This document shows positions 23,214 through 41,954 of a stretch of 41,954 nt of DNA, piece by piece (position 1 is the stretch's first letter; each line of letters opens with the position of its first letter). The DNA lies in contig JABDHI010000021.1 in the NCBI GenBank assembly GCA_013285655.1, positions 1 to 41,954 on the forward strand, read 5' to 3'. Origin of the DNA: Bacteroidota bacterium (GTDB lineage Bacteria > Bacteroidota > Bacteroidia > JABEUT01). A program made the translations under genes and the position numbers. The notes beneath the pieces were generated by a model. It saw only the letters and a list, made by a program, of their open reading frames with translations, had not been told where the DNA came from and made no database searches.

Positions 23214-23363
23214 CAAAGGTAGGACGGATGTTGCCCTATTAAAGGCCTCTATAATGCTGTGGTATTGGCTTTGGTGGCTGTTTTTGGAGTGGTCTGTATT
23301 TCACGCAATTTCATCGTATTTACCAATTTTTACTTACTTTGTGTTACAAATTACGTTACAAAT

Positions 23364-24572
23364 ATGCATCACAAAAAAGCCACGGCGGATCTTATCCTGT
23401 ATGATTTCTATAGCCCCAAAAAGAACGATAAGTACCCTGTAAAGATAAGAATTACCTTCAATCGGGCAAGGCGCTATTATGGTACTGGTATAGATCTGTC
23501 TGCAGAGGAATGGTCCCAAGTATTCTCTTCCAAGCCCGGTAATCTGTCTTCCATCAGGGATGAACTTGTAGAAATGCAAACCAAGGCCAGGAATACCATT
23601 ACCGGTATGCCGGTATTTAACTGGGCCGTATTCGTAGATAAGTTTTACGGAAAGGGTACTGATAATACATTGGCTGGCCTCTTGAAGCAATACGAGGACG
23701 AACTGAAGATGAAAGGCAACATTGGTAACATGAAAGTAACCCACACTTCCCGACTGAGTCTGGAAGAATTTGGAGAAGTAAAACTAAACGATATCAGCCC
23801 TGAGTTATTGAACAGGTATGAAAAGTGGATGTTGGGTAATGGCAAGAAACTGACTACCGTGGGAGTATACCTGCGCAGCTGGCGGACTGTCATAAACATA
23901 GCAATTGAGAAAGGCCTGATCAAACGTGAGCAATATCCCTTTGGTAAAAGAAAGTATATCATACCTAAAGGCTCTCGCCGGAATGAACGTATGCTGATCA
24001 GTAAACAGGAATTAACGAAAATTGAAAAGCATAAAACTGATAATGCTTTCCTTCAGCGCGATATAGCATTCTTACTGTTCAGCTATTATGGGTTTGGGGT
24101 TAACTACCGCGATATACTATTCTTACGCAATAGAGAGATTCAGGATGATGTTATAATAAAGATCCGTACCAAAACCAGCAACTCAACCCGGAGTGATCCC
24201 AGGCCGCTTGTAATACCTCTTAACGCTAAAATGAAAGCTATTATCAAACAGTTTGGTTCTGGAGATAAAGGGCCGGATGATCTGGTATTTCCTATTTGTA
24301 AAGGAATAAATGACCCTGAGAGGCTGCATACGTTATGTACCAACTTTATATCGGATGCCGATAAGCGCCTGAAGAAGCTTGGGATCGAACTTGGCATAAA
24401 GGCCTCATTAACTACCTATGTGGTACGGCATAGTTTCGCAACCAGGTTAGTGCCTATAATTGGTAAGGAAATGGCCAGTGAACTATTGGGGCACCGCGAT
24501 AAAAGAACCATTGAGAATTATTGGACCGGCCACAATAAAGAGGCCTTGAGGAAGATACAAAAGAAGCTTTAA
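23364..24572 (+). CDS. Phage tyrosine recombinase (integrase)
   Basis: 402 residues from the ATG at 23364; an open frame 105 bp further upstream has no family character. An N-terminal arm-binding domain (LYDFYSPKKNDKYPVKIRIT) and a SAM-like core-binding domain (about 110-210) precede the catalytic domain: FGVNYRDILFLR holds the first Arg, VVRHSFAT the second (R355), LLGHRD His377, and ENYW the nucleophile Tyr386. The layout is that of Bacteroidota phage and transposon integrases. It lies 150 bp from the tRNA att core, as expected for the enzyme that acts there, and its 3' end overlaps the convergent small secreted gene by 4 bp. Confidence 0.93.
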   Translation: MHHKKATADLILYDFYSPKKNDKYPVKIRITFNRARRYYGTGIDLSAEEWSQVFSSKPGNLSSIRDELVEMQTKARNTITGMPVFNWAVFVDKFYGKGTDNTLAGLLKQYEDELKMKGNIGNMKVTHTSRLSLEEFGEVKLNDISPELLNRYEKWMLGNGKKLTTVGVYLRSWRTVINIAIEKGLIKREQYPFGKRKYIIPKGSRRNERMLISKQELTKIEKHKTDNAFLQRDIAFLLFSYYGFGVNYRDILFLRNREIQDDVIIKIRTKTSNSTRSDPRPLVIPLNAKMKAIIKQFGSGDKGPDDLVFPICKGINDPERLHTLCTNFISDADKRLKKLGIELGIKASLTTYVVRHSFATRLVPIIGKEMASELLGHRDKRTIENYWTGHNKEALRKIQKKL

Positions 24573-24887: not shown

Positions 24888-25535
24888 TTAAAAGTTATCA
24901 ATTCTTATGGTTCCCCTTACTCTATAAAGCTTAACGACTTTTTTCTGGTCCACTTCCATAATACCATAAGCTTTGTTATCACTTCTGAGATGCCATGTGT
25001 TTTTTATTTTATGTTTATCTATTCTCTTCAGCCAAAGACTTTCATTAGTTACAATTACATAAGCTTGGCCATATTCCACGTCTTTTGCATAATCGAATAT
25101 TTCCTTCAGAACAATTATATCACCTCGTTTATAGGTGGGATACATGCTGTCACCCATAACTCCAATACAGGCCGTTGCATTTCTAAGTGCAGGTAGGTCA
25201 ACCCAATCAATTATATATTCAGGATTAGACTCTGAAAAGAGCATCATATTGCCGGCCATAGCATCAACGTCGTAAAGTGGTAATTTGTGGGCGGCAAGTA
25301 TAGCGTTATTTTTTGCAACAGCTATATGATTTAGGTCATGTTTTTTGTTAACATCTTCTAATGCATCTAGATCTATTCCAATTATTTTCAATCGGGCCTT
25401 ATTAATAGTTCTCAGTTTTTCTTCTTTATACCAACGAATAATTGTGGCCTCAGCAACATTAAGTAATGCTGCTATTTCATTAAGCCCTCTTTCATCTTTC
25501 TGTATAAGTATATGTAGTTTTTGACCTTCGTGCAT
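24888..25535 (-). CDS. CI/LexA-like phage repressor (S24 peptidase)
   Basis: 215 residues. An N-terminal HTH (about 16-41, LNEIAALLNVAEATIIRWYK) is followed by an S24 autopeptidase domain: cleavage-site-like Ala94-Gly95 (DAMAGN), catalytic Ser130 in GDSMYP and catalytic Lys170 in SLWLKRI. RecA-stimulated self-cleavage would link prophage induction to the SOS response. It is transcribed leftward, away from the Cro-like gene; the shared intergenic region carries the operator repeats. Confidence 0.9.
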   Translation of the reverse strand: MHEGQKLHILIQKDERGLNEIAALLNVAEATIIRWYKEEKLRTINKARLKIIGIDLDALEDVNKKHDLNHIAVAKNNAILAAHKLPLYDVDAMAGNMMLFSESNPEYIIDWVDLPALRNATACIGVMGDSMYPTYKRGDIIVLKEIFDYAKDVEYGQAYVIVTNESLWLKRIDKHKIKNTWHLRSDNKAYGIMEVDQKKVVKLYRVRGTIRIDNF

Positions 25536-26230: not shown

Positions 26231-26602
26231 ATGAAAATCACAGATCAAATCAAATCGTTTGAAGATGCTTGCAAAATGCATCCGCCAACACCTGAGCAAC
26301 AAAAAGCGTTGGACTCAGGTTATGAGCCAGCCATTACTACAACTCAATTGGACATTATCGCTAAAGCTTTAAAAACCAATCCCGATACAGGCGAAGTTTC
26401 AAAGCTGGATTTGAAATCAGGCAAGGCAAGGTGGTTCCCTGTGTTTAATGTTATGAACGGCTTCTCGTTCTTCCGCTCGTTCGGCTCCGATACGGGTACG
26501 TCTGTCGGCTCTCGCCACGAATTTGAGACCGAAGAACTGTCTGACTATTTCGGAACTCAATTCTTAGAAATACACAAAGCGCACAAAACCATCCAACAAT
26601 AA
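26231..26602 (+). CDS. DGR target protein A
   Basis: 123 residues, no signal peptide. The N-terminal half (SFEDACKMHPPTPEQQKALDSG) is shared with target B (AALKMYPPTAEQQMVLDSG). WFPVF at about 69-73 precedes the variable segment, residues 77-95, FSFFRSFGSDTGTSVGSRH, and the C-terminus EELSDYFGTQFLEI is again shared. Bases 26458-26516 form variable repeat VR-A. From memory, proteins ending in a GFxF...VGSR block followed by SDYxGxQF are common hypothetical proteins of Bacteroidota phages and mobile elements. The biochemical role is unknown; the diversified surface suggests ligand or protein recognition inside the cell. Confidence 0.85.
   Translation: MKITDQIKSFEDACKMHPPTPEQQKALDSGYEPAITTTQLDIIAKALKTNPDTGEVSKLDLKSGKARWFPVFNVMNGFSFFRSFGSDTGTSVGSRHEFETEELSDYFGTQFLEIHKAHKTIQQ
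26458..26516 (+). repeat. DGR variable repeat VR-A
   Basis: 59 bp aligned without gaps to the template repeat at 34891-34949. By eye there are 17 differences and all are at template adenines. The 33-base hypervariable core is 26471-26503; the flanks CGGCTTCTCGTTC and GTCGGCTCTCGCC are identical in all three variable repeats. Confidence 0.93.
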
Positions 26603-26608
26603 CGCACC

Positions 26609-26977
26609 ATGAAGAATAAAGAAATGACCATCGAGGCTGCATTGAAGATGTACCCTCCTACTGCAGAGCAACAAATGGTACTGGATTCAGGCCATAAGCC
26701 TTCCGTTTCCGGAGTGCTTATAGAACTATTTGCAAGGGCCATGAATACTGACCCTGAAACAAAGGAAGAATGGAAAGCTGATTGGGCCAAGAAGAGTCAA
26801 CGAAAATGGATGCCAGTGTTCTATATGGATGACAACAACGGCTTCTCGTTCGACTTCTCGGACTGCTACGTTACGTCTTCGTCTGTCGGCTCTCGCCATT
26901 GCTTTGAGGATGAAGCATCATCTGATTATGCAGCCAAGGCCATTCTGGACACCTGGAAAGATTTTATAATTCAATAA
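26609..26977 (+). CDS. DGR target protein B
   Basis: 122 residues, 6 bp after target A and clearly its paralogue. TIEAALKMYPPTAEQQ at 6-21 is the shared N-terminal element; WMPVF precedes the variable segment (FSFDFSDCYVTSSSVGSRH, from about residue 79), and the tail ASSDYAAKAILDTWKDF matches that of A and C. Bases 26839-26897 are variable repeat VR-B. No membrane segment or export signal. The tandem arrangement means one early transcript makes two independently diversified versions of the same protein type. Confidence 0.85.
   Translation: MKNKEMTIEAALKMYPPTAEQQMVLDSGHKPSVSGVLIELFARAMNTDPETKEEWKADWAKKSQRKWMPVFYMDDNNGFSFDFSDCYVTSSSVGSRHCFEDEASSDYAAKAILDTWKDFIIQ
26839..26897 (+). repeat. DGR variable repeat VR-B
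   Basis: 59 bp, ungapped match to the template repeat. By eye 16 differences, all at template adenines. Hypervariable core 26852-26884. Confidence 0.93.
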
Positions 26978-27249: not shown

Positions 27250-28509
27250 ATGAAAATAGAAACAGTCAACATTAAGAAGTTCAAGGTCCTTGAAAACTTT
27301 GAGCAAGAACTAGCCGGTAACAATATACTACTGCTTGGCGATAACGGAGTTGGCAAGAGCAGCTTTATAGAGGCTATTGAGATAGCGCTAGGCAAAAGCA
27401 ATTACACCCTACCTGGTGTGAATGGTAAATGGAGTGTAGTATCTACCAAGGATGGTAAGAAATATACCTTCCATGTAGAAGTAAAAGAAGGCAAGCCGGT
27501 TGTTACTATAGAAGGTCCTGATGGTTTAAAGGATAAGCGCAAGGGCACCCTATCTAATCTTATAGGGGCTGTTGATTTCGATATTAACGAGTTTGTTAAT
27601 CTCTCAAAGACTGAAGCTGGAAGAAAGAAGCAGCTTGAAATATTCAAGAACACTTTTTTAGATGCTGAGACAGTAGCAGAAATAGAGCGAATGAACGCCC
27701 ATGTAAAGTCTCAGTTCGAAGAACGAGCTGAGGTCAATAAGGATGTTAAGGCACTTGAAGTAAAAGAAAAGTCCCACCCACTTACCAATCAAATAGACCT
27801 GAGCAAGTATGCACCGGTTGACACCAAAGAAGTATATGCACAGGTACTAAAGATACAGGACCGAAATAACAAAATAAAGGAAGTTGAAACCCGCGATAAG
27901 GAACGGTCCATACGCATAGCGCAAAGAATGAAGGAGATCGAAGAGCTTGAAAAAAAGCAATACCAACTTCGAGAGCTGCAACAAGAAGAAATGACCCAGC
28001 ATTCAGCTGCGCTCGAGTTCTTGAACAAGAACCCTCAATCGGATATATCAGACTTCGAAAAGAAGCTTAATGACGCTACAGAAATAAACAAGCTTCATGA
28101 ACAGGCTCAAGAGCTTATTAAAATAAGAGTAGATCTGGAATGCGCAAAAGAAGAAGCCGGAGAAATGACAGTGGCTTTAGAATTACAGCGCCAGGCTATT
28201 GCAGATAAGATCAGAGAAATGAAGACACCTATCGACGGCTTATCCTTCGATGAAGAGAACCTGTTATACAAAGGCGTTATAGTATCACCAGATACATTAT
28301 CCACCTCCGAAGTGATGGAACTGGGGGTGCGTTTGAAAATGGCTGAGAACCCTGAGCTGGGAGTATTATTCCTGCAGCACGGAGAGAGCCTTGGCGAACA
28401 ACGATTTAAAGACATCATGGATCTGGCCAAGAAAGCAGGATGGCAGGTAATTATGGAACAAGTAGAAAGAGGCAACAAGAACTTAAAGCTTCAAATAATA
28501 GCAGAATAA
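27250..28509 (+). CDS. RecF/SMC-like phage ATPase
   Basis: 419 residues. Walker A is GDNGVGKSS (30-38) inside the typical RecF/SbcC N-terminus (FKVLENFEQELAGNNILLLG). Residues about 135-330 are a Glu/Lys-rich coiled coil (AEVNKDVKALEVKEKSHP, then RIAQRMKEIEELEKK). The C-terminal lobe has SFDEENLLYKG and a Walker B-like strand LGVLFLQHGESLGEQR, in which the usual acidic pair is not obvious. Such proteins act in phage recombination or DNA repair, often beside an SSB and nuclease as here. Confidence 0.75.
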   Translation: MKIETVNIKKFKVLENFEQELAGNNILLLGDNGVGKSSFIEAIEIALGKSNYTLPGVNGKWSVVSTKDGKKYTFHVEVKEGKPVVTIEGPDGLKDKRKGTLSNLIGAVDFDINEFVNLSKTEAGRKKQLEIFKNTFLDAETVAEIERMNAHVKSQFEERAEVNKDVKALEVKEKSHPLTNQIDLSKYAPVDTKEVYAQVLKIQDRNNKIKEVETRDKERSIRIAQRMKEIEELEKKQYQLRELQQEEMTQHSAALEFLNKNPQSDISDFEKKLNDATEINKLHEQAQELIKIRVDLECAKEEAGEMTVALELQRQAIADKIREMKTPIDGLSFDEENLLYKGVIVSPDTLSTSEVMELGVRLKMAENPELGVLFLQHGESLGEQRFKDIMDLAKKAGWQVIMEQVERGNKNLKLQIIAE

Positions 28510-32250: not shown

Positions 32251-33901
32251 TTTTAAAATGGTGAAGCTTGCCGACATTGTCATTGGCAATACTAACCCCC
32301 GAACAGAATTTGATAAAAGCGCTATTAACGAGTTGGCGAAGTCAATATCTGTGCATGGTGTTATACAGAACATCACGCTCCGTGAAGGCAAGAAAAAAGG
32401 ATACGAGCTTGTATGTGGAGAGCGCCGATACCGTGCAAGCTTAATTGCTAATCTTACTGAGATTCCTGCAGTAATAAGAGAGCTGACTGATGATCAGGTA
32501 TTCGAATTGCAAATAACTGAAAATCTTCAAAGAAAAGACATATCACCAATAGAAGAAGCGATGGCATTTAATGCTATCCAAAAGAAGAAGGGTTTGGACA
32601 TAAAGCAGATAAGTGTAAAATTTGGTAAGTCTGAAAAATATATAGCTACCAGACTGAAGCTTATAAATCTCATTCCTAAATTTCAAGAAGCATTATTCAA
32701 GGGGTATATTAATTTACAGGAAGCATTGCAAGTGGTTCTTCTCTGCAAGGAGGACCAAGAAGCGCTCTATGAGGAAGCTTCTGATAATTCTTTAGGGGAT
32801 GGTAAAATGGAGATTACCGATTACGATATAAATCAATTTCTCCGGGTATTAAAAGAAGCCCCGTTTGATACCAAGGATCCGAAACTCATAAAGACAATTG
32901 GTGCATGTGCGGGATGTCAATTTAACACTGCTAACAACGGATTGTTATTTACCGATTCCGGGAAGGAAGCGAAATGCATGAACGGCAAATGCTATGAAGA
33001 TAAGTCTGCAGCTGCATTTAATGTTCGGTTAAAAGAAGCATTAGAGGATCCGGCTATTGAATTTTTACAACAGGCATACATGACTGTTGCAGAGAAGAGT
33101 GTACAAGATCTTGTAAAGGGACATAAGGTATACACTTCTTACACATTTGACTACAGCAAGGGTGGTAAGAGCCCTGCCTATCCTACCAGGGCTTTTGTCT
33201 TGGAGGGTTCCGGTAAGGGAAGTTTTGTATATGGCCGTATTAAAAAAATGGATAACGGAAATACAGGTAACACATCAACTGCAGCAGCGTTCAAAGAAGC
33301 CACTACTAAGGGTAAGGTAAGTGCAAAACAAATAAATGATGAGATAGCCAGGTTAAAGGGTAAGGAGAAGCGCAGTATAGAGCTGGATTCTGAAAAAGTG
33401 GCATTGCAAGTTTATGAAGCGTTGGCGATCAATGATAAATTCAAAAACAGCCAAGAACCTTTAAGCCATACAGAACTTGTAGCGGCGGTCCAATTAGTAT
33501 GGGAAGAAGGACTTGGTTTTGATAAGGACGGATACTACAAAGCGGCTGGGCTTCCATTCAAAGGAAGATTTGTAGATGCATTGAAGTTTTGCGAAGCACT
33601 TATTGGATTAAGTAAAGAAAAGTTAATGACAGTATTGGCTATCACCATCCGACATGCAATAATTGAGAAATTCAACTATATGGCTGGGTATACTGTTAAA
33701 TCAGCCCATGTACTTAACGTAGAAGCCTTGTTAACCCAATATGATAATGCAAAGGTGCAAAGCATTAAAGCTGAGATTAAAACTAAAGCTTCAGAAAGAG
33801 CTGAGAAGATGCAAAAGACAATAGCCAAGCTTTCTGAAATGAAATCCCCCCCCCCAAAAAAAAATAAAGAGCCTCACAAACAATTAACAATAAACATTTA
33901 A
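32234..33901 (+). CDS. ParB/Spo0J-like protein, phage type
   Basis: 555 residues. The ParB N-terminal domain (10-100) has GERRYRA (62-68) and TENLQRKDISPIEEA (95-109), followed by an HTH (DIKQISVKFGKSEKYIATRL, about 116-135). In the middle there is a Cys-rich patch (GACAGCQFN, then KCMNGKC, about 222-258) that could bind zinc, and a helical C-terminus. No ParA gene is adjacent, so in this integrated phage it may regulate transcription or use its CTP-dependent clamp for DNA handling. Its 3' end holds a C10A9 homopolymer run. Confidence 0.85.
   Translation: MKNTTNFKMVKLADIVIGNTNPRTEFDKSAINELAKSISVHGVIQNITLREGKKKGYELVCGERRYRASLIANLTEIPAVIRELTDDQVFELQITENLQRKDISPIEEAMAFNAIQKKKGLDIKQISVKFGKSEKYIATRLKLINLIPKFQEALFKGYINLQEALQVVLLCKEDQEALYEEASDNSLGDGKMEITDYDINQFLRVLKEAPFDTKDPKLIKTIGACAGCQFNTANNGLLFTDSGKEAKCMNGKCYEDKSAAAFNVRLKEALEDPAIEFLQQAYMTVAEKSVQDLVKGHKVYTSYTFDYSKGGKSPAYPTRAFVLEGSGKGSFVYGRIKKMDNGNTGNTSTAAAFKEATTKGKVSAKQINDEIARLKGKEKRSIELDSEKVALQVYEALAINDKFKNSQEPLSHTELVAAVQLVWEEGLGFDKDGYYKAAGLPFKGRFVDALKFCEALIGLSKEKLMTVLAITIRHAIIEKFNYMAGYTVKSAHVLNVEALLTQYDNAKVQSIKAEIKTKASERAEKMQKTIAKLSEMKSPPPKKNKEPHKQLTINI
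33846..33864 (+). repeat. C10A9 homopolymer run in the ParB-like gene
   Basis: Ten C then nine A, encoding SPPPKKN about 17 residues from the end of the ParB-like protein. A slip here would only change the short basic tail. Confidence 0.8.
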
Positions 33902-33913
33902 CTCAAATCAATT

Positions 33914-34353
33914 ATGAAACTAAAAACATTCAACGCAGAGACTTGCCCTCCTGCTACACGTTCAGGGCAAAAGACAATTCGGTTTGCTGTTGCCGGGCAA
34001 ATAACCTTAAGCAAGGCCATAGTTAAAGAGCTGGGCCTTAAAATAGGCGACACGATATCATTCCACCAGGATGAGGAAGAAGAAATGAACTGGTTCATAT
34101 CAGTTAAAACAGATGATGGTTTTAAGCTTCGCCAATATAAAGATGCTGATTCATTATTGTGTAACAATTCAGCTATTTCTAAAAACATCATGGATGCCTG
34201 TTTTGATGTGACAGATGGCTACCCATCAAGCGTAGCGTTTAAAGTGTTGCTGGATAACCCTGAGAAGTTGGGGGGGGGGCAAAGTATTACCCGCTTATCT
34301 CCATTGCGCAACGAGTGGAGGAGACGGAAGAGGAAGAAGAGAACAACGATTAA
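33914..34353 (+). CDS. AbrB-like phage protein, apparently frameshifted at a G10 run
   Basis: The first 118 residues are in frame from ATG 33914: AGQITLSKAIVKELGLKIGD is a swapped-hairpin AbrB-like strand pattern, followed by WFISVKTDDGFKLRQYKD. The run G10 at 34270-34279 then intervenes. In the present frame the rest becomes very basic (NEWRRRKRKKRTT) and reads through into target C as one 313-residue ORF to 34855. With one G more (or two fewer) it reads KYYPLISIAQRVEETEEEEE and stops at 34353, 13 bp before the next ATG, a far more natural end. Either a phase-variable switch, a mutation or a sequencing error; the fusion is less likely. Confidence 0.65.
34270..34279 (+). repeat. G10 tract (possible phase-variation site)
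   Basis: Ten consecutive G in AT-leaning DNA, inside the AbrB-like gene and just before DGR target C. Changing the tract length decides whether the AbrB-like protein ends normally or is fused to the target. Confidence 0.75.
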
Positions 34354-34366
34354 TTCTAAACTAACA

Positions 34367-34855
34367 ATGGAAAACAAAACGATATCAATAGAAGCCTTGG
34401 TTAAGCTTTATACCATAGGTGACAAGAATACAAAAGCAGAATTGGTAAAGCAGTTCGGGAAAGAAACTTTCATATCCCCGGTTGGTATGCCAACAACCTG
34501 GGAGGAACTTGCTGAGGCTGTAAGTATGCATCCTATTAATTCACTACCATTTGCAAATCCAAAAGACAATAGGGAAATATCGGTAAATGCTGATTTTGTA
34601 TTGGATGTATTGAGCGAGTATATTAATAAAGACGAGACAGGCAAGATTTGGAAACCTAATCGCAAAAACAGTAAAGAGGATAAATGGTTTCCGGTATTCC
34701 AGGGCAACCCGGGAGACGGCTTCTCGTTCAACGACTCGCACTACTACCATTCCGCTTCGATTGTCGGCTCTCGCCATGAATACAGGGATAAGGCAAGGTC
34801 AGATCATGCCGGTAAATACTTCCTGAAGTATTACGAACAACGATCAACCATTTAA
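34367..34855 (+). CDS. DGR target protein C
   Basis: 162 residues from ATG 34367, the only Met that gives an N-terminus like target B (ISIEALVKLYTIGD versus TIEAALKMYPPTAE). It has an extra middle segment (TTWEELAEAVSMHPINSLPF) compared with A and B, then KWFPVF, the variable segment FSFNDSHYYHSASIVGSRH and the shared tail ARSDHAGKYFLKYYE. Bases 34717-34775 are variable repeat VR-C. It lies directly before the template repeat and RT, the usual place of a DGR target. No export signal. Confidence 0.8.
   Translation: MENKTISIEALVKLYTIGDKNTKAELVKQFGKETFISPVGMPTTWEELAEAVSMHPINSLPFANPKDNREISVNADFVLDVLSEYINKDETGKIWKPNRKNSKEDKWFPVFQGNPGDGFSFNDSHYYHSASIVGSRHEYRDKARSDHAGKYFLKYYEQRSTI
34717..34775 (+). 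repeat. DGR variable repeat VR-C
   Basis: 59 bp, ungapped match to the template repeat: 12 differences at template adenines and one at a G (G to C at 34753). Hypervariable core 34730-34762. It is closer to the template than VR-A and VR-B are. Confidence 0.92.
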
Positions 34856-34890: not shown

Positions 34891-34949
34891 CAGCTTCTCG
34901 TTCAACAACTCGAACAACTACAATACGAATACGAATGTCAGCTCTCACC
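34891..34949 (+). repeat. DGR template repeat (TR)
   Basis: 59 bp with 20 adenines, 17 of them in the 33-base core 34904-34936. Read in the target frame it encodes FNNSNNYNTNTNVSS, i.e. AAC/AAT/TAC/ACG/AGC codons whose adenines can be randomised without making stop codons from AAY. It lies 111 bp before the RT gene on the same strand. The following bases (34950-35009) still align with the targets' 3' ends but include an in-frame TGA (34955-34957). The flanks differ from those of the variable repeats by A/G at 34892, 34940 and 34947. Confidence 0.93.
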
Positions 34950-35060
34950 TATGCTGAGAACAATATGAAGATGCAGACCGTGCCAACAAGGCAAAACAAG
35001 ATTTAAAATAAAGAGGCATTGGTACCGGGAAGGGAAGATGATCTCTAACGCAAAGGCAAA

Positions 35061-36113
35061 ATGAAACGAAAAGGAAACCTATACGAACAGATATACAGCA
35101 TGAGCAACCTCAGACTGGCTTACAAGAAAGCCAGGAAGGGAAAGCGCAATCAATACGGTGTGAGGGTGTTTGCTCGCGATATCGAGGGTAACCTGCTAAA
35201 GCTTCATTATGCACTAAAGAACAAAACATACAAAACCCCTCCTTATACCGGTTTTAAAATATTCGACCCAAAGGAGCGCGATATACTCAGATTGCCATTT
35301 CCGGATCGGGTAGTGCATCATGCCATAATGAATATTATGGAGTCCATCTTTGTTTCAACTTTTACAGCCGATACATATAGCTGCATTAAGAAGAGAGGCA
35401 TACATGCAGCATCGAAAGCAGTACGAAGAGCCTTAAGAGATGAGGCAAATACAAAATACTGTCTAAAACTCGATATAAAGAAGTTCTATCAGAACATAGA
35501 TCATGGCATTCTTAAGCAACTTTTACGTAAAAAGATAAAGGATAAGGATCTGTTATGGCTACTGGATGAAATTATCGATAGCGCTGAAGGAGTACCGATC
35601 GGTAATTACTTAAGTCAATATTTCGCTAATTTTTATCTCAGCTATTTCGATCATTACATTAAAGAGGTCCTCAGGGTAAGGTATTATTTCCGTTATGCTG
35701 ATGATATGGTATTCCTGGCATCCAACAAGCCTCATTTGCATTGGATATTATCTGATATGCGCAGGTATCTTTCAGATGAATTGAAGTTAACCTTAAAAGC
35801 AAACTACCAGGTATTCCCGGTTGCAGCCAGAGGAATAGATTTTGTCGGGTATGTGCACTTCACATATACACACGTTTTATTACGGCCAAGTATCAAAAGG
35901 AGATTTGCCAGGATGCTGGTTATTAATCCTAACCCTCAGTCGATAGCATCTTATATGGGATGGTTATCACATTGCAATAGTAACAACTTAACAAACAAAT
36001 TATTACATAATGGAGCATATAGTAAAAATAGGAACAAAAGTGTACATAGGAATAGATCCGGGAGTAAACACCGGTATGGCCCAAGTAGCGCACGGAGTAT
36101 TATTCCGGTGTGA
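35061..36113 (+). CDS. DGR reverse transcriptase
   Basis: 350 residues. RT domains in order: DPKERDILRLPFPDRVVHHA (RT1-2), LKLDIKKFY with catalytic D138, GVPIGNYLSQ (177-186) and the active-site YADD (212-215). The I-G-x-x-x-S-Q form in motif 4 separates DGR RTs from retrons and group II intron RTs (Q-G-x-x-x-S-P). No maturase or endonuclease domain. It copies the TR transcript with errors at adenines; the cDNA replaces variable repeats in targets. The last 35 or so residues overlap the RuvC-like gene in another frame, so the natural end may be only partly conserved. No avd accessory gene was found. Confidence 0.93.
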   Translation: MKRKGNLYEQIYSMSNLRLAYKKARKGKRNQYGVRVFARDIEGNLLKLHYALKNKTYKTPPYTGFKIFDPKERDILRLPFPDRVVHHAIMNIMESIFVSTFTADTYSCIKKRGIHAASKAVRRALRDEANTKYCLKLDIKKFYQNIDHGILKQLLRKKIKDKDLLWLLDEIIDSAEGVPIGNYLSQYFANFYLSYFDHYIKEVLRVRYYFRYADDMVFLASNKPHLHWILSDMRRYLSDELKLTLKANYQVFPVAARGIDFVGYVHFTYTHVLLRPSIKRRFARMLVINPNPQSIASYMGWLSHCNSNNLTNKLLHNGAYSKNRNKSVHRNRSGSKHRYGPSSARSIIPV

Positions 36114-36450
36114 GACGACAGCAATACATAAGGCTATGGATTGTATACGTAACCTGAAGCAAAGCCTTGTATCACCAACCTTGGAAGTGATCATTGAAGA
36201 TGCACGTACCCGGGGAGGGTCAAGTATAAAAGCCCAAGGAGCTGGCAGCATAAAAAGAGATTGCGGTATATGGGAAGCATTCCTGAAAGATTTGGGAATA
36301 GAATATCGCTTTACCAGGCTAAGTAAAAAAAGCATTACCAAAAAGGATCCTACCTGGCTGAAGCTTCAGACCGGATGGTCCGACAGAACGAGTCAACATG
36401 CCCGTGATGCAGCATGTCTGTTATTACCATACATAAACACTAAACAATAG
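36010..36450 (+). CDS. RuvC-like Holliday-junction resolvase (phage)
   Basis: 146 residues. The RNase-H-like fold starts YIGIDPGVNTGMA (D16 catalytic), continues with EVIIEDARTRGG (second acidic residue) and ends with HARDAACLLLPY (last acidic residue), matching phage RuvC-like nucleases such as those that trim packaging substrates. Its first 104 bp lie inside the RT gene in a different frame. It may process branched DNA before the terminase, whose genes follow. Confidence 0.8.
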   Translation: MEHIVKIGTKVYIGIDPGVNTGMAQVAHGVLFRCETTAIHKAMDCIRNLKQSLVSPTLEVIIEDARTRGGSSIKAQGAGSIKRDCGIWEAFLKDLGIEYRFTRLSKKSITKKDPTWLKLQTGWSDRTSQHARDAACLLLPYINTKQ

Positions 36451-40819: not shown

Positions 40820-41954
40820 ATGGAAGGGGAACGCAGAATATGGGGATATGGTTCAGCATTCAGCCAGATATGGCGTGAGAACCTTACGGAATCAGTACCG
40901 TTTTATCCACTTTGGTTTAATCAATTCCTCAACAGAAAGCTTCCGGTAATAATCGATACTAACAACCTGATGCTGGTTGTTAAGTCTATCCCAATACTTG
41001 AAAGCGTTATTGCCAAGAAAGCTTGCATGTTCAAGAATGCCAAATTCTTCATGTATAAGGTCGATAAGAACGGCGAACCGGATCTAACCAAGCCAATATA
41101 CAAGCATCCAACATTGGACCTCTTAAAACGCCCTAATTGCCTTCAGACCAAGGCAGACTTCTTGGCGCAATGGTCCTTCTTCAGGTCTGTTTACTCAACT
41201 AACCTTACATACAAGAATAAGCCCACGACCGTATCAGCTCCAAAGATAATGTGGAACCTGCCAATGGGTGAGATGAAAATAATACCTACCGGCAAGCTAT
41301 TCCAGCAAACGGCCATCGAAGACATTATTGAGTATTACGAGCATATCAATAACCAGTTCCCGAACGCATCGCCTAAGTTCTATAAGCCAGGAGAAATAAT
41401 ATTATCGGTTGACGGTCCTATGGATCAGTACTATTTCGGTACATCGAAACTGCTAATAAACAAAACGATTATTAGCAACATTCAAATGGCTATGAATACC
41501 CGTAACGTGTTGTTGCAGGACCGCGGCGCTATGGGTATATTATCTTCAGCCGGTGGTGATGATGCTGGAGGATTGCCATTGGATCCTGAAGAACGTAAAT
41601 TGATTGAAGAAGATTATCACAGGCGTTATGGCCTTCGTGAAGATCAGGGCAAAATATTAATTACCAATGCGGCCCTAAAATGGCAGGCTATGAGTTATCC
41701 TACCAAGGATCTCATGCTCTTCGAAGAAGTGGAGGACGACTTCTGCCATATCATTACCATGTTAGGCCTCCTTCGTGATATCTTCCCTAACAGTGCCGTA
41801 TCTCGTTCAAGCACACCTATCGGTGGTGATGGTAAAGGCAAGATTGAAGAAGCTGAAAAGATATGTTACAACACTACACTTCAGGGCGAGATTGACATAT
41901 TTTGTGAGGGCATCAATGAAGATAAAGATTTCAGGCACGAAGAGCAAGCCGTTG
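40820..41954 (+). CDS. Phage portal protein (partial, runs off the window)
   Basis: 378 codons visible from ATG 40820, no stop. Segments typical of portal proteins are SVPFYPLWFNQFLN and LMLVVKSIPILESVIAKKA at the start, NLPMGEMKIIPTGKLFQQ, GPMDQYYFGTSKLLI (crown/stem region) and LLRDIFPNSAVSRSSTP near the end. The portal forms the dodecameric ring through which DNA enters the head. Position after the terminase supports the call. Confidence 0.8.
   Translation, partial: MEGERRIWGYGSAFSQIWRENLTESVPFYPLWFNQFLNRKLPVIIDTNNLMLVVKSIPILESVIAKKACMFKNAKFFMYKVDKNGEPDLTKPIYKHPTLDLLKRPNCLQTKADFLAQWSFFRSVYSTNLTYKNKPTTVSAPKIMWNLPMGEMKIIPTGKLFQQTAIEDIIEYYEHINNQFPNASPKFYKPGEIILSVDGPMDQYYFGTSKLLINKTIISNIQMAMNTRNVLLQDRGAMGILSSAGGDDAGGLPLDPEERKLIEEDYHRRYGLREDQGKILITNAALKWQAMSYPTKDLMLFEEVEDDFCHIITMLGLLRDIFPNSAVSRSSTPIGGDGKGKIEEAEKICYNTTLQGEIDIFCEGINEDKDFRHEEQAV

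Follow-up and report, generated by a model that had tools for sequence, protein, structure and literature searches.

A prophage diversity-generating retroelement with three small, probably non-structural targets belongs to a class found across Bacteroidota phages

The prophage in the window analysed here (41,954 nucleotides, the whole of contig JABDHI010000021.1 from a Bacteroidota bacterium) almost certainly carries a diversity-generating retroelement (DGR) that acts on three small paralogous proteins, and these targets are very probably non-structural. In a DGR, the RNA of a template repeat (TR) is copied by a reverse transcriptase (RT) with random bases opposite the template adenines, and the cDNA replaces a variable repeat (VR) in the target gene. 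Phage DGRs are usually viewed as tail-tropism devices. An earlier note had claimed a DGR hitting three genes of a Bacteroidota prophage, and this is borne out by the adenine-specific differences, by an RT of the DGR type, and by VRs that lie in open reading frames. What the targets are had been left unasked, and the point of interest is that they do not appear to be tail proteins. The element belongs to a large, coherent and active class of DGRs in unrelated temperate phages, in which the targets are small and encoded in the early region, and the VRs are internal.

The TR (34891..34949; all features are on the forward strand unless stated otherwise) is AAY-rich, and the 59 nt considered here read SFSFNNSNNYNTNTNVSSH in the frame of the VRs. 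It aligns without gaps to VR1 (26458..26516), VR2 (26839..26897) and VR3 (34717..34775), with 17, 16 and 13 differences, respectively. Template adenines account for 45 of these 46 differences, including all of those in VR1 and VR2 and 12 in VR3; the sole non-adenine change is a G to C in VR3, at TR position 37. Given that 20 of the 59 TR positions are A, the binomial probability of at least 45 of 46 differences falling at adenines is 2e-20 under a random-position model. The counts in the earlier note were exact on recount, as was its placing of the TR 111 bp ahead of the RT gene. No TR copies beyond these four were found in the whole window by a scan with adenines left free, or in the 2.69-Mb assembly by a scan allowing up to 3 mismatches. 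The assembly is only 68.7% complete and the window is a whole contig ending inside the portal gene; further targets can therefore not be excluded. A chance or assembly repeat is ruled out by the binomial probability, the whole-genome scan and the conservation of the class. By eye, the sequence 3' of the TR (34950-35010) resembles a decayed copy of the region encoding the targets' C-terminal helix, as if the TR descended from a duplicated target.

The extent of rewriting is smaller than the raw counts imply. TR positions 2, 50 and 57 are G in VR1, VR2 and VR3 alike, so that nine of the 45 adenine differences are fixed A-to-G changes at three edge columns. A position-wise count anchored on the TR was made across relatives, covering 85 VRs from 39 loci. 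The TR adenines at positions -55, -48, 0 and +7 of this count are G in the VR in 46/49, 54/54, 84/85 and 85/85 cases, respectively; the last three correspond to positions 2, 50 and 57 of the window TR, while -55 lies outside the 59 nt. Between the fixed edges there is a randomised core of about 44 nt, where 831 of 840 differences are at TR adenines and the bases at the best-sampled first codon positions are near even. Because the edge columns are fixed as A in the TR and G in the VR across relatives, while the 44 nt between them are randomised, the nine edge differences are probably not products of hypermutation. The core itself contains 14, 13 and 10 differences in VR1, VR2 and VR3. Through this core, each target could take on about 1e10 protein variants. 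The 3' fixed pair (0 and +7) falls in codons for a conserved GSR motif, and from sequence alone we infer that it marks a boundary akin to IMH/IMH* but lying within the gene, the function of which has not been shown; alternatively, Gly and Arg may be under strict selection. In the window targets the sequence 3' of the VR is coding, unlike that of most DGR targets.

The RT gene (35061..36113) encodes a protein of 350 aa that matches RVT_1 (4e-16) and phrog_1423 (4e-123) and is open and intact in every aligned motif. The two motifs named in the earlier note were both located in the alignment, IGNYLSQ at residues 180-186 and YADD at residues 212-215 (alignment numbering). A profile of the RT and its relatives has its best solved-structure match, at 236 bits, to 8ub7, which we take to be the BPP-1 DGR RT (the record says just 'Reverse transcriptase'); the corresponding scores are 102 bits for a group II intron RT and 27 for retrons. 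A maximum-likelihood tree separates two group II RTs from all other rows, which group with 8ub7 with support 100/100. No retron rows were included in this tree. The RT is therefore placed with the presumed BPP-1 enzyme and not with group II introns; a retron or group II RT is ruled out by the profile scores for both, and by the tree for group II only. An anti-phage DRT was also considered and rejected, since the NCBIfam and PADLOC matches represent generic RT similarity, far under the curated cut-offs where such exist, and the PADLOC matches are scattered over many RT types. At its C-terminus the RT is extended by a basic segment of about 25-30 aa, which is absent from most relatives and is encoded in the overlap (36010-36113) with the following gene, which is Holliday-junction-resolvase-like (36010..36450; phrog_1770, 7e-25).

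The element had been described as complete, which needs qualifying on two counts. No Avd gene was found, but this is a weak test: the bAvd model gave no match in 23 genomes or records, and no control matched either. PF05635 was met only on other contigs of the host, and an Rfam search over the prophage returned nothing. No RT relatives were found in genomes of the same genus, so that population variation of this prophage could not be followed, and no near-identical relative of the prophage itself was found; the activity of this copy could thus not be measured.

The three targets are small paralogous proteins. Target 1 (26231..26602) has 123 aa, with the VR at residues 76-95 followed by a conserved C-terminal helix. 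Target 2 (26609..26977) has 122 aa, and target 3 (34367..34855) has 162 aa with a longer N-terminus; as assembled, the latter shares one continuous frame with the gene before it (ORF 33914-34855). All three VRs thus lie in a single protein family and are internal, being followed by about 25-30 residues. The function of the family could not be assigned: Pfam, NCBIfam, PADLOC, and PDB sequence and fold searches gave no family match, and PHROGs gave only weak matches to unnamed families. Neither a tail-protein or other structural match (Pfam, PHROGs) nor a DNA-binding or antirepressor domain (Pfam, PHROGs, NCBIfam) was found. Given the lack of a structural match and the early-region location, the targets do not qualify as phage tail-fibre targets of a DGR, although their presence in or absence from the virion has not been shown. 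They are probably cytoplasmic, a localisation inferred from the absence of an obvious signal peptide, which was read from the sequence and not computed.

In the predicted structure of target 1 (pLDDT 88, pTM 0.79; pLDDT about 75 in the VR part), a helical N-terminal part is followed by a hairpin, where the VR lies, and then by a C-terminal helix. It matches no fold in the PDB (best E 2.6) and, in BFVD, only uncharacterised phage proteins with marginal E-values. The model of target 3 is moderate (pLDDT 76), too weak to help, and also lacks a PDB match. A C-type lectin fold was not detected in the targets by Pfam, NCBIfam, PDB sequence or fold searches. When the small family is compared with tail targets at the profile level, just 24 columns align, at the VR end, and there is no tail scaffold beyond the VR. 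Our reading is that the hairpin is shared with tail targets, while the scaffold is either a different one or has been much reduced; this is inferred from models and profiles, and a divergent C-type lectin is not excluded.

The position of the targets within the prophage supplies further context. A tyrosine integrase (23259..24572) marks the left prophage end, and an S24/CI-like repressor on the reverse strand (24888..25535; PF00717, 6e-14) marks the immunity region. Targets 1 and 2 come directly after this repressor and an HTH gene. Further on, a ParB-like gene is followed by target 3, the TR and the RT, and then by the terminase and the portal protein (40820..41953, cut by the contig end), the structural genes beginning past the DGR. 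The targets therefore lie in the early/replication region, near repressor and replication genes and apart from tail genes. No defence-related gene directly adjoining the targets was identified in the window, and an AAA protein (27250-28509) matches defence ATPases only weakly and in part.

The same arrangement is found widely in Bacteroidota phages. Close RT relatives in IMG/VR have two VRs in the same small family, whereas in more distant ones the VR is at the C-terminus of a large tail protein. Viral contigs were searched with a single family member; the alignment of the whole family is short of conserved stretches. When each phage record was scanned with its own TR, 27 records of 32-75 kb (six from a first round, 35-58 kb, and 21 further ones, 32-75 kb) were found to have 2-3 VRs each, always in small ORFs (at most about 220 aa) and never in a tail gene. 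G014, a shorter record, has only one VR. A tape-measure-like match is present in at least nine of the 27 records (six above the family cut-off), so that tail modules were in view there. A query with one small target returned 71 loci, near-identical contigs being counted separately; an adenine-specific repeat pair is present in 56 and a DGR-type RT motif in 61. More than 500 relatives of the RT were found in Bacteroidota genomes (with a few in Ignavibacteria). Among the best 80 of these loci, 65 have small targets, nine have tail targets and six have no VR in range, and none has both kinds within range; the 65 small-target loci hold 145 repeat pairs, a few of which overlap or are redundant.

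Target type is strongly clustered on the RT tree, with 4 changes of label compared to 19.5 expected, and the small-target RTs do not form a single clade. In a mixed group (G010, G011, G017 and BI-TP1), a single TR serves both a tail protein and a small protein encoded at a distance. Outside the cassette, the phage genomes of the class are mostly unrelated to the window, which indicates a modular cassette. In Mu-like prophages, marked by Portal_Mu and a MuB-like ATPase, the cassette is preceded on its own strand by the MuB-like gene in all 16 loci where that gene was found, and is followed in 19/19 by the portal gene, which is on the opposite strand and convergent with it. By this order, the Mu-like cassette belongs with the early genes and is separate from the structural operon; early expression is inferred from the same order. 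An S24 repressor was detected in 8/30 records, and in several relatives it is encoded on the opposite strand, a few kb upstream of the cassette.

That the class is active can be seen in relatives, though not for the copy in the window. L109 and L111 differ at 1 position outside the repeats in a shared 9.7 kb, and at 9 and 11 positions inside their two VRs. L103 and L104 differ at 2 positions outside the repeats over 12 kb and at 6 within a single VR, while the pairs L137/L139 and L009/L010 have 37 and 22 outside, and 11 and 9 in the VR, respectively. In all four pairs, every VR difference is at a TR adenine and the TR is unchanged. It is because near-identical phages differ in this way, with the TR fixed, that the class is called active. 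The exceptions among small-target pairs are one non-adenine difference (L008/L031) and one TR difference (L100 versus two neighbours). In near-identical contigs, the paralogous targets vary independently of each other.

Several known systems share part of this design. The BPP-1 DGR (mtd / bRT / Avd) has the same RT family, a TR directly before the RT, changes only at adenines, and fixed TR/VR differences at the 3' edge (IMH/IMH*). Its target is a tail-tip C-type lectin with a C-terminal VR, in contrast to the three small early proteins with internal VRs seen here, and neither its Avd nor a C-type lectin was detected in the window. The closest precedent is the second DGR target of Quimbyvirus, which is non-structural and lies amid defence-related genes (Benler et al. 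2021, PMC8008677). Both Quimbyvirus targets have been called C-type lectins (PMC8008677), a label that was not reproduced for the small family in the present searches; Quimbyvirus also diversifies a structural protein, whereas all known targets in the window belong to the small family. In BI-TP1, gp84 is a family member with a VR that matches the phage's own TR, and it lies among methyltransferases and a tRNA ligase, which fits the description of the Quimbyvirus target (PMC8008677); the BI-TP1 RT is split over three frames. Since BI-TP1 has a VR-bearing family member in a similar neighbourhood, the small family extends the Quimbyvirus observation.

DGRs with multiple VRs are common, at 28.6% (Yan 2019, PMC6642488; also Schillinger 2012, PMC3521204), and likewise use one TR for 2-4 paralogous targets, some of them remote (PMC3521204, PMC6642488). 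The examples are mostly bacterial, with 0/24 in the 2012 table from Bacteroidetes proper (PMC3521204), and the annotated targets are of the FGE-sulfatase or DUF1566 types (PMC3521204, PMC6642488). The Hankyphage and Bacuni phage DGRs (PMC12135933, PMC8143477) also occur in temperate or isolated Bacteroides phages, but their targets are tail fibre or fimbrial-tip-like and an Avd gene is present. Tentaclins (PMC10743442) are targets of a two-target phage DGR in which the VR is not C-terminal; at 569-579 aa, with N-terminal C-type lectin and Ig domains, they are unrelated in size and domains to the window targets. Viral DGR targets are mostly tail proteins with VRs at their C-termini on C-type lectins (Roux et al. 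2021, PMC8144416). Phage DGRs with only small targets were not found described as a class in the open-access literature (subscription papers, preprints and supplementary tables were not covered), and large DGR surveys very probably already include these sequences, unnamed.

A role inside the cell can be proposed from this arrangement. The RT would copy the TR RNA with random bases opposite adenines (the chemistry is inferred, the adenine pattern observed), and the cDNA would be swapped in for the core of about 44 nt in each VR of the three paralogues. Each target, produced early after infection or upon induction, would then act as a scaffold that displays a randomised hairpin and binds a fast-changing intracellular partner, either a defence protein of the host or part of a competing phage. 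With two or three paralogues, one phage could carry several binders at once. That the targets are hypervariable cytoplasmic binders in phage-host or phage-phage conflict is a best guess, to which we give slightly less than an even chance; it rests on the gene neighbourhood and the need for rapid variation, and no partner, phenotype or localisation is known. It is tempting to speculate that phages across the Bacteroidota share a class of DGRs devoted to diversifying early-expressed, intracellular, non-structural binders in 2-3 paralogues on a scaffold other than a C-type lectin, serving as a self-randomising counter-defence or inter-phage weapon, but this must be regarded as possible and doubtful. 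Should host defences or rival phages prove to be the partners, DGRs would give phages an adaptive arm in their intracellular conflicts. Some hosts of the class can be cultured (Pedobacter, Flavobacterium), which makes it directly testable.

Receptor binding is the best-known role of phage DGRs, and the small proteins might instead be hypervariable receptor binders carried on the virion, as adhesins or tail accessories, with genes that happen to lie apart from those of the tail. A virion role is not excluded, because the TR of G010, G011, G017 and BI-TP1 also serves a tail protein, and the last 24 VR columns align with tail VRs. Such a role is nonetheless unlikely considering the early-region position in unrelated phage types, the opposite strands of targets and portal in every Mu-like locus scored (19/19), the size of the products (122-162 aa, without a tail-protein match), and the lack of a tail scaffold beyond the VR in the profile comparison. 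Similarly, the position of targets 1 and 2 directly after the repressor and HTH genes, together with the S24 repressor a few kb upstream in several relatives, would suit proteins acting in lysis-lysogeny or superinfection immunity, for example antirepressors or binders that track the variable repressors of other phages. This has no more than a minor chance of being right, as no DNA-binding or antirepressor domain was matched and some cassettes have no repressor detected nearby.

The window copy could also be a decaying relic of true DGR ancestry without present activity: VR3 has a non-adenine change, target 3 is fused in frame via a G10 tract, and there is no near-identical relative in which activity could be tested. 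This is improbable in view of the RT, which is open and intact in all aligned motifs, the open frames of all three VRs, the absence of non-adenine changes from VR1 and VR2, and the activity of relatives in the class.

Two further observations concern individual phage records. In L028, L037 and L164, which are crAss-like or large phage records, the RT frames contain several stops under table 11 (five TAG in cr60_1), consistent with TAG recoding. L042 (Dulem virus 41) encodes a small-family protein and has no RT match in the record, which suggests that the small family can exist without a DGR of its own.

The G10 tract (34270..34279) lies in the gene before target 3, and its length decides whether that gene reaches its own end or runs on into target 3. 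As assembled, the tract sets gene 33914 in frame with target 3; the other frame gives a natural-looking acidic tail that ends immediately before the target 3 ATG. This frame fusion may reflect either phase variation or an assembly error. Only four G10/C10 tracts occur in the 2.69-Mb genome, and two of them are here, at 34270-34279 and 33846-33855, about 420 bp apart. Homologues of gene 33914, which has an AbrB/MazE-like N-terminus, also have G tracts, a G11 at 11741-11751 in L006, where the frame is broken, and a G8 at 8524-8531 in L244; these tracts hint at a contingency-type gene. In L044 (BI-TP1), five G/C tracts of 8-10 lie within about 9 kb of phage genes (212-9529).
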